Assembly (NCBI GenBank): GCA_028277585.1
Contig: JANQFY010000331.1
Coordinates: forward strand, 1 to 40,449
Reading direction: 5' to 3'
DNA: 40,449 nt
DNA from: Sedimentisphaerales bacterium
GTDB taxonomy: Bacteria; Planctomycetota; Phycisphaerae; Sedimentisphaerales; Anaerobacaceae
Shown: piece after piece, positions 34,850 to 40,449 of the stretch
Layout: every line of letters begins with the position of its first letter
Position numbering within the stretch: position 1 is the stretch's first letter
Notes under the pieces: generated by a model
Seen by the model: the letters and a program-made list of their open reading frames with translations, nothing else
What the model was told of the DNA's origin: nothing
The model's database searches: none
Program-made: the position numbers and the translations under genes

Positions 34850-35838
34850 AGAAGCCATTCTCACACAAGCGATGGACGCCGGGACTCCTGAACCTGCTGG
34901 CGTGGACTTGTCTGATAACGGGTCTCCTGGGGTTGTTGATGCGCTATGGGATTCGAGATCGCGTGCCCATGTTGGCGGCCGTCTTCTACGCACTGCCGCC
35001 TCTGATCATCGTGATGCTGTTCGCGATGTCGTCAGGACTGAGTCTGCTTCCACCTTGCAGACGACGCCGAGGGCAGATCTCGGGGCTTCTCACCGTGGTT
35101 GCGATTGGGGTCTGGATTCAGACGGATTTCGTGTGGGCCAAGGCGGACGACCAGGCCGCCCCTTCGTTTCGGGTCGTTCTCTGGAACTTGGCCCGTCCGT
35201 CAGGGACTGACACATCTTTCATTCCGGCTTTGCAGGAAACCGACGCTCAGATTCTGTTCCTCGTGGAATCAGGCGGTCAGACGATGGATCGGCAGCGATT
35301 CTGGGAGTCCCACTTTCCCGATCACCACGTTCGGTTGTTCGCCAGCCAGATGACGTTGCTGTCGAAGTACCCGATAGCCAGTGTTCGCTGTACAGCAGTC
35401 GGTGAAGGGACTTGGATTGCCGAGTGCGATCTGGTTCTTCCTGAGGAGACTCTCTCGGTTGTCGCTGTGGACGTAGTGAGCGTTCCCTGTAGCGGTCGCA
35501 GGCGTCCACTCGATCGCATTCGCGCCATCGCGGGCTCCAAACGTCGTCCTGTCCTGGTGTTGGGCGACTTCAACACGCCGCATACATCAGTTCTGTTCGA
35601 GGAGTTTCGTCGGTCCTTCTCGCATGCGTTCGAGGAGTCCGGCGGGGGGCTGATTACGACATGGCCCTACTTCCTCCCGGTGCTGGCGCTGGACCATATC
35701 TGGTTGTCTGAGAAGCTCGTTCCCGTGCGAACGACGCTGCGCCGAACCCACTACTCGGATCACGCGATCGTGATCAGTGACATCGCTGTTGAAGGTTCCG
35801 GCAAGCCTGTCGAGCCGGGCACGGTAAGCGACGCATGA
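34846..35838 (+). CDS. Membrane-anchored endonuclease/exonuclease/phosphatase family protein
   Basis: The protein is 330 residues from GTG 34846, overlapping the previous stop. Three hydrophobic helices occupy about residues 12-95, then an EEP fold faces outward. Motifs: VVLWNLARP (Asn), LFLVESGGQ (Glu), VLGDFNTPHTS (Asp, Asn) and, at the C-terminus, LDHIWLS and HYSDHAIVISD (Asp-His pair). The full metal-catalytic set is present, so it is probably an active phosphodiesterase acting on nucleic acid or lipid phosphate outside the cytoplasm. It resembles the three-helix plus EEP arrangement of bacterial YafD-like proteins. The stop overlaps the priA ATG (ATGA). Confidence 0.85.
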   Translation: MKKPFSHKRWTPGLLNLLAWTCLITGLLGLLMRYGIRDRVPMLAAVFYALPPLIIVMLFAMSSGLSLLPPCRRRRGQISGLLTVVAIGVWIQTDFVWAKADDQAAPSFRVVLWNLARPSGTDTSFIPALQETDAQILFLVESGGQTMDRQRFWESHFPDHHVRLFASQMTLLSKYPIASVRCTAVGEGTWIAECDLVLPEETLSVVAVDVVSVPCSGRRRPLDRIRAIAGSKRRPVLVLGDFNTPHTSVLFEEFRRSFSHAFEESGGGLITTWPYFLPVLALDHIWLSEKLVPVRTTLRRTHYSDHAIVISDIAVEGSGKPVEPGTVSDA

Positions 35839-38198
35839 GTAAGAAGGATGCCACACTGAGTCTGTTTGGGGGCGATGAACCGCCGCCCGAGGCACCTTGC
35901 CGGCACGCGATTCGCGTGGCGCTGGGTTCGGCGGCCGACACGGAGTTCGACTATCTGGTTCCCGAGGAGCTCTGGCCCGTCCCAGTTGGCCAGCGGGTCG
36001 AGGTGCCGTTTGGTAGGGGGAATAAGCCCGAGACCGGTTTCTGCGTTGCTTCGGACGTGCCTTGCGATCAACCCCTGGCGCGCGACGGGCGTCCCATTCG
36101 TCTAAAACGCGTCTCCAAGGTGATCGATGAGCAGCCCTTGCTGGGGGGCGAGCTAATGGGGCTGGCGCGCTGGATCAGCGAGTACTATGTCAGTCCGCTC
36201 GGCCAGGTCCTGGCCGCGATGGTTCCGGCCGCGGTCAAGCGGGCCGCGGGGGTCAAGCGGCAGAAATGCGTGTATCTCGCCACGACCGACGAGAAGGCTT
36301 CCGAGGGACTCCGGGGTGTCAAGCAGAAGCAGATCGTCGATTTGCTCCGCCGGCGTGAAGCGTTCGGGCCTGACGCCGCGTTGGAGATGGACGAACTCGT
36401 CGAGACGATCGACTGTCGTCCACCCACTGTCAAGCGGCTCGCCCAGAAGCAGATCGTCCGGATCGCGGAGAAGAAGATCCTCAGTGCGCTGCCAGTGGTG
36501 CCTGAGTCGATGGCGAACGAGCCGCATGCGGTCGTTCTCAACGAAGACCAGAAGAAGGCGCTGGAACGCATCGGTCAGAAGATCGAGTCGGGCCGTTTCG
36601 CGGTCACCGTGTTGTACGGGGTCACCGACAGCGGTAAGACGGAACTGTACATCCGAGCGATCGAGCAGGTTCTTAAGAAAGGGCGGGCCGCCATCGTGCT
36701 CTTGCCCGAAATCGCCCTGACCACGCAGACGGTGCAGCGTTTCAACGCGCGATTCGAACGCATCGCGGTGATGCACTCGGGTCTGACGGCGGGCCAGCGT
36801 AACGTGCAATGGCAGAAGATCAGATCGGGACAGACGGACGTCGTGATCGGCGCGCGTTCGGCGGTCTTCGCTCCTTTGCCCAATCTGGGCATCGTCGTGG
36901 TCGACGAGGAACATGAACCGAGCTATAAGCAGGACACGGTGCCGCGCTATCATGGTCGGGATGTCGCCATCAAGCGGGCGCAACTGGCCGGCGCCCATTG
37001 CATCTTGGGCAGCGCGACGCCTTCGCTCGAGAGCCTGCACAACAGCCAGACGCGGCCCAGTTTCACGCTGGTGGGCCTGCCCAAACGGGTGATGGACCTG
37101 CCCATGCCCACGATGCGATTGGTGGACATGCGGCAGCGGGGGATCACCGCCGGCGCTTCGGATCTGATGAGTCGCCCGCTGGTGGACCATCTCAGGCAGA
37201 CTCTCGAACGCAAAGAGCAGGCGATCCTGCTGCTGAACCGTCGCGGCTACAGCAGTTTCGTCTTCTGCCCATCATGCAAGCACACCGTTCAGTGCCGCAA
37301 CTGCGACGCGGCGCTGACGTTCCACAAGACCAAGCGGCCCACCGCGGCGATCAAGACAGTCACCGGGTGCCACATGAATTTCGGATACGCGATTTGCCAC
37401 CATTGTCAGGCGCAGACACTCGTGCCCCGCAAGTGCCCCTTGTGCGGCAAGGCGATGACGATGATCGGCCTGGGCTCGCAACGGCTCGAAGAGGAGGTCA
37501 CGGCCAAGTTCCCCGAGGCCCGCGTCCGGCGGGTCGACAGCGATTCGATGGTCAGCCAGGACTACTACCGTCTGCTCAAGGAGTTCGGGCAGGGCCGGAT
37601 CGACATTCTCGCCGGCACGCAGATCCTTGCGAAGGGGTTGCACTTTCCCAATGTGACGCTCGTCGGAGTCATTAGCGCCGATACGTGTCTCTATTTACCG
37701 GACTTTCGGTCCAACGAGCGGACCTTCCAATTGATCTCCCAGGTCGCGGGCCGGGCGGGGCGCTCTCAGAAGAAGGGGACCGTCTTCGTGCAGACTTACT
37801 TCCCCGACCAGCCGACGATTCGCTTCGCCCTGGACCAGAACTTTCAGGGGTTCGTGAAGGAAGAGATGAAGCACCGCGAGGCCTGTACGCTGCCTCCTCT
37901 GTGGCGTTTGGCGACGATCGTGATGCGCGACGAGATCTACGAGAAGCTCGAAATGGCCGCCCAACGGATGCGTCAGCGGATTGATGACATGGTCCAGCGA
38001 CACGACCTGGAGGTCAAGATTCGCGGCCCGATGCCGGCAGTGATCAGCCGTATCCAACGATTCCATCGCCTCCAGATCGTCGTCCAAGCCCCTGACGCGG
38101 CGGTCATGGGCCGGCTCTTCGGCGCCCTGCGGACGGCGCCGCCAATTCGCCCCGCGGTAAAAATTGCTATTGACATCGATCCCGTCAATCTGTTATAG
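35835..38198 (+). CDS. priA: Primosomal protein N' (replication restart helicase)
   Basis: The protein is 787 residues. An N-terminal DNA-binding domain (FDYLVPEELWPVPVGQRVEVPFG) is followed by a winged-helix segment. The helicase has Walker A GVTDSGKTELYIRA (one substitution relative to the usual GVTGSGKTE), LLPEIALTTQ, VVIGARSAVFAP, the DEEH box VVDEEHEPSYKQ and GSATPSLESL. The zinc-binding insert has CPSCKHTVQCRNC and CHHCQAQTLVPRKCPLC; the C-terminal motifs LAGTQILAKGLHFPNVTLVGV and QVAGRAGRSQKKGTVFVQT are intact. It reloads the replicative helicase at stalled forks. It is the last gene of the lhgO operon, and its end overlaps sequences upstream of the tRNA. Confidence 0.97.
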   Translation: MSKKDATLSLFGGDEPPPEAPCRHAIRVALGSAADTEFDYLVPEELWPVPVGQRVEVPFGRGNKPETGFCVASDVPCDQPLARDGRPIRLKRVSKVIDEQPLLGGELMGLARWISEYYVSPLGQVLAAMVPAAVKRAAGVKRQKCVYLATTDEKASEGLRGVKQKQIVDLLRRREAFGPDAALEMDELVETIDCRPPTVKRLAQKQIVRIAEKKILSALPVVPESMANEPHAVVLNEDQKKALERIGQKIESGRFAVTVLYGVTDSGKTELYIRAIEQVLKKGRAAIVLLPEIALTTQTVQRFNARFERIAVMHSGLTAGQRNVQWQKIRSGQTDVVIGARSAVFAPLPNLGIVVVDEEHEPSYKQDTVPRYHGRDVAIKRAQLAGAHCILGSATPSLESLHNSQTRPSFTLVGLPKRVMDLPMPTMRLVDMRQRGITAGASDLMSRPLVDHLRQTLERKEQAILLLNRRGYSSFVFCPSCKHTVQCRNCDAALTFHKTKRPTAAIKTVTGCHMNFGYAICHHCQAQTLVPRKCPLCGKAMTMIGLGSQRLEEEVTAKFPEARVRRVDSDSMVSQDYYRLLKEFGQGRIDILAGTQILAKGLHFPNVTLVGVISADTCLYLPDFRSNERTFQLISQVAGRAGRSQKKGTVFVQTYFPDQPTIRFALDQNFQGFVKEEMKHREACTLPPLWRLATIVMRDEIYEKLEMAAQRMRQRIDDMVQRHDLEVKIRGPMPAVISRIQRFHRLQIVVQAPDAAVMGRLFGALRTAPPIRPAVKIAIDIDPVNLL

Positions 38199-38199
38199 C

Positions 38200-38228
38200 T
38201 TGCAATCTTTCCGAGCCTGTGCTACATT
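38200..38228 (+). promoter_or_regulatory. Promoter for tRNA-Pro
   Basis: TTGCAA, 17 bases, TACATT, with transcription predicted a few bases before the tRNA. It starts 2 bases after the priA stop. Confidence 0.5.
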
Positions 38229-38243
38229 GCGGGCTCGTTCGAC

Positions 38244-38318
38244 CGGGGAGTAGCTCAGCTTGGCTAGAGCGCTGCGTTCGGGACGCAGAGGTCGCAGGTT
38301 CAAATCCTGTCTCCCCGA
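38244..38318 (+). tRNA. tRNA-Pro (anticodon CGG)
   Basis: The acceptor stem CGGGGAG pairs with CTCCCCG, with discriminator A. The D-arm is GCTCAGCTTGGCTAGAGC. The anticodon stem CTGCG/CGCAG encloses loop TTCGGGA, so the anticodon is CGG (Pro, CCG codons). The T-arm is GCAGGTTCAAATCCTGT. The length is 75 bases. CCA is not encoded. CCG is a common Pro codon in this GC-rich genome. Confidence 0.97.
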
Positions 38319-38404
38319 TTCACCTCCTTTGCAGCCCGATCGCATTCGCATCGAAATCGCGGCGGCGCACTCTTGGCGCCAGCTTCCTGATGACGGCCGA
38401 TGGC

Positions 38405-39946
38405 TCATCGCATGTGCGCGTTTGCTGGTTGGATCCCCGTTGCAACGTGCTGGGTCTGCTCGGTGTAATTGCTCTTGAATTTCGACATGGTCTGGGCGAG
38501 TTCGCCAGCTTCGGCTGCATTCTGCTGGGCAGCCTTGTCGAGTTGCGAGAGTGTCTTGCTGACCATGGCAATATCGGCGGACTGCTCATCAGAGGCTTGG
38601 GCGATCTGATGGATGAGCTCAGAGGCCTTGCCGTTCCTCGCTACGATCTGACTGAACGCCTCGCTGGTGGAGTCGGCCAGCTTGGCCCCCTCATTGATCC
38701 TGTCAACGGTTTCGGAGATCATTTCGGTGATCTTGCGGGCTGAATCGCCGGACTGCAGCGCCAGCGTGCGGACCGCCTCCGAGACAATCGCAAATCCCTT
38801 GCCTGCTTCGCCGGCCCGGGCCGCTTCGACGGCCGCGTTCAGCGCCAGCAGATTCGTCTGCTGGGCGATACCGTCGATCGCCTGCACGATTTCACGCGTC
38901 TCGCTGGTGAAACGCGATATCTCACCCATGGACGCGGTCAGTGATGTCATCGTCTCATCGGCCTGGCTGATCACGCTGGTCATCGCCGTTATCTGCTCGT
39001 TCGCCTCCTGGGCGCGGGAGGCGTTCTGACTTGTCTTCTGATCGATCTCTTCCACCGAGGTCGACGTCTGCTTCACCATCTCCGCCTGCTTGCCGGCCTC
39101 CGATCCGACCTGTCGCCCCGCCTTTTGGGCCTGGCCTATCACCTGATTGAGGTTGCCGATGAACCCATTGAAGAGCTTCGCCATCAGACCGATCTCGTCG
39201 CGTCTCTGGATCGGGATACGGGTGGTTAGGTCTCCCTCATCTTTCTCGAAACGTTCGAGCAGTTCCACGAACAGCCCCAACGGGGTGCGTACGAATTTCT
39301 TGACGATCACGTACATGGTCACCGCCAGGACGGTGACAATGCCCAGGACGGTAACGAGTCCGCTGCGAAAGGCGTAGCTGCGGGCGCTGCGAATGTTGTG
39401 TTGGGCCTGAATCTTTGCTTGGGCCAGGTCGGCGGTCGAGAACTTGAAATAGGTCACACCGCTGATATCGCCCTCACGCCACGAGGTGTGGCATCGTATG
39501 CAATCACCTGTGTTGACTTGCGGCGTGTAGATTTCCAGCGTTTCGTCGCTGACCAGCATGCGCCCGTTGGGGTCCGTCAGCAGGTCCTGCTTGATGGTCT
39601 CCGGCAACTCCCGTGCGATGTTGTCCGAATCGGACGAGTGGGACACCTTGCCGTTCTGGTCGAACAGCGAGAATTCGAGCAGGCCCTTCACTTGCTTCTG
39701 CTGTTCCAGGAGTTTGGTGAACTTGGTCATTTCTCCACGCTGCAGCGAGCCTGCGATTGATTGCTCGATGGATCGGTGGACGTTCTCGGCGTTTTCCCGC
39801 TCGCGGTGTTCGAGCATTTCGATACTGGCCTGCGCCTGATTCCTCAGACGTTTGGTGGTATCCAGGTACTGTACGAACTGGGCGCCACAGACCACGACAG
39901 TCAAGGCCGAAAGCAGCCACAGGATCAACTTGGTGTGGAGTTTCAT
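38405..39946 (-). CDS. Methyl-accepting chemotaxis protein with periplasmic c-type heme site
   Basis: The protein is 513 residues from ATG 39946. TM1 is at about 6-26 and TM2 at about 195-216, with a 165-residue periplasmic sensor between them. That sensor has a CIRCH motif (Cys149, Cys152, His153), the covalent heme-c attachment signature, just before [13 protein letters not shown] follows (about 217-270), then a coiled-coil signalling domain with the hairpin tip [34 protein letters not shown]. Heme-c MCP sensors are known in Geobacter (GSU0582, GSU0935). It lies 13 bases after a [NiFe] hydrogenase small subunit gene in the same direction, so co-transcription is likely. No C-terminal CheR-tether pentapeptide is seen. 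Confidence 0.93.
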
Positions 39947-39959
39947 GTGATTCTCTCTC

Positions 39960-40449
39960 TCAAGAATGAGTGGGAGCCCCTTGGTTCTCAGCCATACGGT
40001 AGAAGGCGAACTCCGGGTCTTCGGCGAAGCCCTCCCAGGCGCAACCAATGCACGGGCCACCGGATTTGATGCAACTGTTGGTTCCGGAATTCCAGAGGCG
40101 GGTCGTGCAGTCGGCGTGGGTATTGATCCCGAGACAGCCGAGTTTGAAAAGACATCCGGGCTCGGAGAAGCTCTTGGCGAAGTTCTCGCGTTCGTAATCG
40201 GCGAATCTCGGACATTGGTCGTGTATCAGCGTCGAATAGAACATCTTGGGTCTCTTCTGTTCATCCAGTTCCGGCAGGCCGAACTTGAGAACGTGAATGA
40301 TCGTCCCAATCAGCCAGTCGGGATGAACGGGGCAACCGGGCAGTGCGATGATCGGCTTGGAGACCTTCCGATCCGCGAGGAACGCCGGGGCGGCGATGGC
40401 TCCGGTGGGGTTGTTTCGAGAGGCGGGTATGCCTCCGAATGCTGCGCAC
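39960..40449 (-). CDS. [NiFe] hydrogenase small subunit (5' end beyond window)
   Basis: About 162 C-terminal residues are in the window. The Fe-S cluster ligands are visible: [10 protein letters not shown] (proximal cluster), [10 protein letters not shown] with [13 protein letters not shown] (distal cluster, His plus three Cys), and HADCTTRLW...[13 protein letters not shown] (medial cluster). The order is that of group 1/2 type small subunits. The protein ends about 20 residues after the last cluster motif with APTHS and has no C-terminal membrane helix, unlike membrane-bound uptake enzymes. The open frame continues to 40449. The large subunit and maturation genes should lie upstream, outside the window. 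Its stop is 13 bases before the heme chemoreceptor start. Confidence 0.93.

Follow-up and report, generated by a model that had tools for sequence, protein, structure and literature searches.

Known hydrogen-sensing hydrogenases and heme-c receptors

The HoxBC/HupUV hydrogenases (RH, group 2b) are H2-sensing [NiFe] enzymes that work with a signalling partner, and the H2 sensor RH of Ralstonia lacks the C-terminal large-subunit extension that is present in most [NiFe] hydrogenases (PMC7294309, PMC8229454). The locus described here resembles them in the missing extension and in the pairing of a [NiFe] enzyme with a signalling protein and, judged by its genes, would belong among the H2-sensing hydrogenases, but RH is cytoplasmic, has no Tat signal and has a histidine kinase as its partner, whereas this hydrogenase is Tat-exported and of group 1 type and is encoded beside a transmembrane MCP (chemoreceptor). 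Signalling of a hydrogenase through MCPs has also been proposed for the [FeFe] group C2 enzymes, classified as "chemotactic (putative)" (HydDB, PMC5037454); those enzymes are unrelated, whereas both subunits here match [NiFe] families, the enzyme is periplasmic, and in the main lineage the receptor is a predicted heme-c protein. The best-matching subunit families and solved structures are those of the group 1a [NiFe]/[NiFeSe] hydrogenases (HysAB; NF033181), with which the module shares a Tat signal and an extra Cys at the position where enzymes with a medial [3Fe-4S] cluster have Pro; it differs from them in its large-small gene order, the missing C-terminal extension, Cys (TGC) in place of Sec, and an MCP in the operon.

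The receptor itself is most like the heme-c Cache receptors (sCache_heme; GSU0582/GSU0935; the Mcp40H-20 sensor, PF21563), in which a periplasmic Cache domain is likewise fused to HAMP-MCP and an inserted short helix ahead of the final strand carries CxxCH. Unlike them it is linked to a hydrogenase, and it has no match to PF11845 (Tll0287-like/DUF3365) at E 0.01 and scores 23 bits against PF21563, under the cut-off of 27. CxxCH is about 99% conserved in DUF3365 (PMC12889525), whereas the module has a sister lineage without it (below). Methanococcus maripaludis shows taxis towards H2 (as cited in PMC4266047), and an MCP cluster is listed, apparently without discussion, among the neighbours of [NiFe] hydrogenases in PMC12727194. 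In a literature search that fell short of most subscription journals, so that prior art is possible, we found no named bacterial H2-taxis receptor and no description of a module or class in which a periplasmic [NiFe] hydrogenase is paired with an MCP.

The receptor gene and its operon

The window, that is the whole 40,449 bp stretch of DNA that was analysed, is the complete contig C53 (JANQFY010000331.1) of a 7.17-Mb, 532-contig genome (GCA_028277585.1). Its relevant features, and those of a second contig to which it can be joined, are as follows:

39960..40448, minus strand: [NiFe]-hydrogenase small subunit, C-terminal 162 aa (PF14720, E 4.6e-26; PF01058, E 1.3e-9)
39947..39959, minus strand: intergenic gap of 13 nt, GAGAGAGAATCAC, which holds GAGAGAG (sequence read directly)
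38405..39946, minus strand: MCP, 513 aa (PF00015, E 1.6e-36; PF00672, E 4.4e-9)
39362..39865, minus strand: periplasmic Cache sensor domain, aa 28-195 (AlphaFold2 pLDDT 90.6; Cache fold matches including 3b42, 3b47 and 5b82)
39728..39730, minus strand: Met73, candidate distal heme ligand (co-occurs with CxxCH)
39488..39502, minus strand: CIRCH heme-c motif, aa 149-153 (C149, R151, C152 and H153 invariant in 23 sensors)
39143..39289, minus strand: HAMP domain, aa 220-268 (PF00672)
38534..38965, minus strand: MCP signalling domain, aa 328-471 (PF00015)
38244..38318, plus strand: tRNA-Pro(CGG), convergent boundary beyond the operon (ARAGORN)
35835-38198, running towards the MCP gene: priA, beyond tRNA-Pro (Pfam)
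Contig C189, L030 2882-3331: remaining part of the small subunit (13-bp overlap and in-frame join)
Contig C189, L030 1341-2849: large subunit, 502 aa, upstream of the small subunit

The first-pass annotation had placed the small-subunit stop and the MCP start 13 bases apart on the same strand, which is exact, and had taken the two genes for an apparent operon. The gap GAGAGAGAATCAC between the stop and the MCP ATG is purine-rich and ribosome-binding-like; 13 nt give space for a ribosome-binding site and are too short for a terminator plus a promoter. The operon reading agrees with a scan of 38150-40449, in which no sigma-70-like promoter (the one promoter type scanned) and no minus-strand terminator-like site was found. 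Because tRNA-Pro and priA run towards the MCP gene, it is the last gene of its unit. Its product has the signalling domain, the HAMP domain and the two transmembrane segments (about aa 7-25 and 196-215) of an MCP.

The small-subunit gene in the window is cut off by the end of contig C53. Among the six PF01058 matches in the genome one is an N-terminus without an end (on the 3331-base contig C189) and one an end without a start (in the window). The end of C189 and the start of the reverse-complemented C53 share 13 bases, GTGCGCAGCATTC, and joining them in frame gives a 308-aa Tat-exported small subunit whose gene is split over two contigs in the assembly. Extension upstream, as the first reading had proposed, thus reaches the large subunit on C189. 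From the overlap and the reading frame, backed by the same order in relatives, we infer an operon in the order large subunit, small subunit, MCP.

Recurrence of the hydrogenase-sensor pair

The arrangement was first met again, with the same three genes, in three genomes that belong to a different family of this order. When species genomes were scanned with a large-subunit alignment, 80 loci emerged, and those with the large-small order, plus the rotated locus L060, lie together in the large-subunit tree and are called the clade here; tree support is 97/99 for a group that also takes in L087 (Spirochaetes, small-large order), whose basal placement is unsettled. Of the 39 clade loci that could be assessed, 37 have a homologous sensor gene next to the hydrogenase (MCPs, and once a histidine kinase), and none of 33 relatives outside the clade has an MCP near its hydrogenase, so the adjacency does recur across genomes, as the earlier annotation had asked. 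The sensor gene directly follows the small subunit at 34 of these loci and, as a fragment at a contig end, at L074; at L060 it lies between the subunits and at L075 just before the large subunit. The two exceptions are L095, a hydrogenase without a receptor, and L113, which has another gene in place of the small subunit; L089, which ends inside the small subunit, was left out of the count. The adjacency is thus no peculiarity of this genome, since other families and phyla have it as well. Taxon labels of the module loci include Desulfobacterales, Desulfobulbaceae, Riflebacteria, Omnitrophota, Hydrogenedentes, Krumholzibacteriota, Lentisphaerae and several planctomycete groups, and the named strains Desulfocarbo indianensis (L062) and Desulfurivibrio sp. 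AMeS2 (L090) carry it.

The pairing was also approached from the receptor side, by searching 392 Planctomycetota genomes with a profile of the sensor domain only (E 1e-8 or better). This gave eight matches in seven genomes, all eight directly after a hydrogenase small subunit. Large-subunit and sensor distances co-vary (Mantel r 0.81 over 33 loci and 0.83 within the heme clade; none of 5000 permutations was as high). By its recurrence in dozens of genomes and this co-divergence the adjacency is far above chance.

One sensor copy (L153) stands without an adjacent hydrogenase. In an Omnitrophota genome (L157 6627-10806) an extra heme-sensor copy is fused to a hybrid histidine kinase and followed by a receiver-type gene, and because it has no adjacent hydrogenase the exclusivity of sensor and hydrogenase is not absolute. 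Downstream of the clade large subunit at L113 (5224-7105) come an ATPase-like gene and one further gene, which looks as though the remainder of the operon had been replaced by an insertion. The Desulfocarbo module has a phage-type integrase gene upstream of it (L062 5162-6355), which may point to transfer.

The hydrogenase

The large subunit scores 674 bits against NF033181 (NiFeSe/1a-like, group 1; cut-off 600) and stays under the cut-off of the HysA exception model. Its catalytic motifs are intact, with both NiFe-site CxxC motifs (RICGVC and DPCIAC) present, and the small subunit has a Tat signal (TRREF at the N-terminus). Both Cys codons of the second CxxC are TGC and not the TGA that would encode the Sec of [NiFeSe] HysAB. 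No gene for a cytochrome, a quinone-linked subunit or maturation lies in the module's own operon; in some genomes (L056, L063, L067, L069, L078 and L089) maturation genes adjoin the module.

Wherever the end of a clade large subunit could be read, the protein terminates at DPCxxCxxH (here DPCIACAVH), and the large subunit here thus departs from group 1 in having no cleavable C-terminal extension. Large subunits outside the clade run 14-21 residues past the motif, save a few rows that are unreadable by pattern or short-tailed, and the ordinary small-large hydrogenase on contig C397 of this genome carries 14 additional residues, with a maturation-protease-like gene after it. Some non-sensory hydrogenases are also without the extension. 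The clade hydrogenase looks specialised for sensing. A sensory enzyme may be scored as H2-oxidation capacity in surveys, since a respiratory hydrogenase family model accepts its large subunit.

The C397 hydrogenase (L040 355-3290, G000:C397), the second Tat-type enzyme of this genome, has CQGD at the proximal motif of its small subunit. In part of the heme-less lineage described below (small subunits of L077, L080 and L083, also L013, L022 and L029) Asp or Glu stands in for a Cys of CxGC (CSGD, CSGE, CTGD), which may make for an unusual proximal cluster there.

The sensor domain and its heme

An AlphaFold2 model built with 23 sequences has a long helix followed by the Cache sheet, and the CIRCH helix (147-152) lies between the last two strands (136-144 and 161-170), which is the insertion characteristic of sCache_heme. 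Structure searches with the model retrieved Cache domains that include those of the heme-c sensors GSU0935 (3b42), GSU0582 (3b47) and Tll0287 (5b82); when the sensor alignment was used as a profile against the PDB, only chance matches came up. Heme c binding is predicted from the motif and from a cytochrome c assembly gene in the genome.

The CxxCH that the first-pass annotation had seen in the periplasmic domain is thus the CIRCH at aa 149-153, and its conservation in relatives holds for part of the clade: the motif is kept in 24 sensors, with C149, R151, C152, H153 and M73 invariant in the aligned heme group (n = 23), and it is absent from a sister lineage, mostly planctomycete, in which DM-x-R replaces DC-x-R-CH and the operon and homologous sensor are kept. 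The notion of a universal CxxCH in these receptors was accordingly dropped. The large-subunit tree has heme sensors on more than one of its branches, and a loss of heme in the heme-less branch therefore seems more probable than several gains. Met is found at position 73 in 23 of 23 heme sensors and in none of 10 without CxxCH; it travels with the heme and therefore may be the distal ligand. Its equivalence to Met60 of GSU0935 is unsupported, the two being five residues off in alignments, and Met73 remains a candidate.

A proposed hydrogen-sensing module and its alternatives

Our preferred reading, which we hold to be probable, is that the three genes form an H2-chemosensory module, in which a dedicated periplasmic [NiFe] hydrogenase signals via the MCP; in the heme lineage it would do so by reducing the heme, in the heme-less lineage presumably through contact. 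The hydrogenase would be docked on the MCP and act as a dedicated H2 detector; electrons from H2 would pass via the Fe-S clusters of the small subunit to the c-type heme of the receptor's periplasmic Cache domain, the enzyme in effect turning the gas into a redox change on the receptor. Heme reduction, probably with a ligand change, would shift the Cache-HAMP conformation and through it CheA activity and swimming. In Geobacter heme sensors, with potentials of -156 and -251 mV, a redox-linked coordination change that moves the HAMP domain has been proposed (PMC8396549). Because the sister lineage keeps the operon without CxxCH, heme redox cannot be the sole channel between hydrogenase and receptor, and in that lineage the state of the hydrogenase would presumably be read through direct contact. 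The pairing is probably how these bacteria steer by hydrogen gas, and the module is a concrete candidate for a bacterial H2-taxis receptor in many anaerobic lineages, isolates included. We give about even chances to the broader statement that these are an unclassified and widespread class of periplasmic sensory [NiFe] hydrogenases complexed with a transmembrane receptor, in which electrons passed directly to the heme c of the receptor drive H2 taxis, and contact carries the signal in a sister lineage that has lost its heme.

An ordinary periplasmic uptake hydrogenase could instead feed a cytochrome pool whose redox state, and not that of the hydrogenase, is read by the MCP. Such energy taxis would suit the respiratory NiFeSe model (NF033181) whose cut-off the large subunit passes, and sensing of redox potential has been ascribed to the heme-Cache MCPs of Geobacter (PMC8396549); but the operon lacks a cytochrome or quinone-linked subunit, the extension is absent throughout the clade, the sensor subfamily is paired exclusively with this hydrogenase in Planctomycetota, and the heme-less lineage retains the pair, and we consider this explanation unlikely. 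Still less probable is that the heme-MCP senses NO or another gas and is co-expressed with the hydrogenase so that cells leave an inhibitor of the enzyme. The one HAMP-linked sCache_heme protein tested, from Pseudomonas azotoformans, does bind NO tightly (PMC12889525), but it is predicted to have an open distal site, whereas here an invariant Met accompanies the heme; moreover, the operon persists in the heme-less lineage, and the clade hydrogenase is itself modified. That two unrelated genes are merely adjacent by chance or local neighbourhood, which the window alone could not exclude and which the same-genus genomes (no full-length homolog and no such adjacency found) might seem to favour, is refuted in practice by recurrence over many phylum labels, by co-divergence and by the reverse search.

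Chemotaxis genes at the module loci

The chemotaxis branch suggested in the first reading is strengthened by the clade-wide missing extension, by the exclusive pairing in Planctomycetota, by the gene neighbourhoods and by the change of output at L117, with H2 as the presumed signal. At L061 the genes CheA-CheW-large subunit-receiver protein-small subunit-MCP-MCP-CheB lie on one strand, and L064 has a core in common with it; at L066 (Riflebacteria) CheA, MCP and CheW are upstream and CheA plus a receiver protein downstream. CheA and CheW also lie beside L068 and L081, and CheW beside L069; no CheA, CheW or CheB neighbours were seen at the loci outside the clade. At the distant locus L117 (34% identity) the third gene encodes heme sensor-PAS-HisKA-HATPase, which by its domain order is a putative swap of output from MCP to histidine kinase. 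The genome of the window has about ten CheW-domain loci, flagellins and a cytochrome c assembly gene. Extra MCP genes lie beside the large subunit at L058 (3914-5071), L112 (1050-4045) and L092 (5278-6699), and some loci have two or more receptors.
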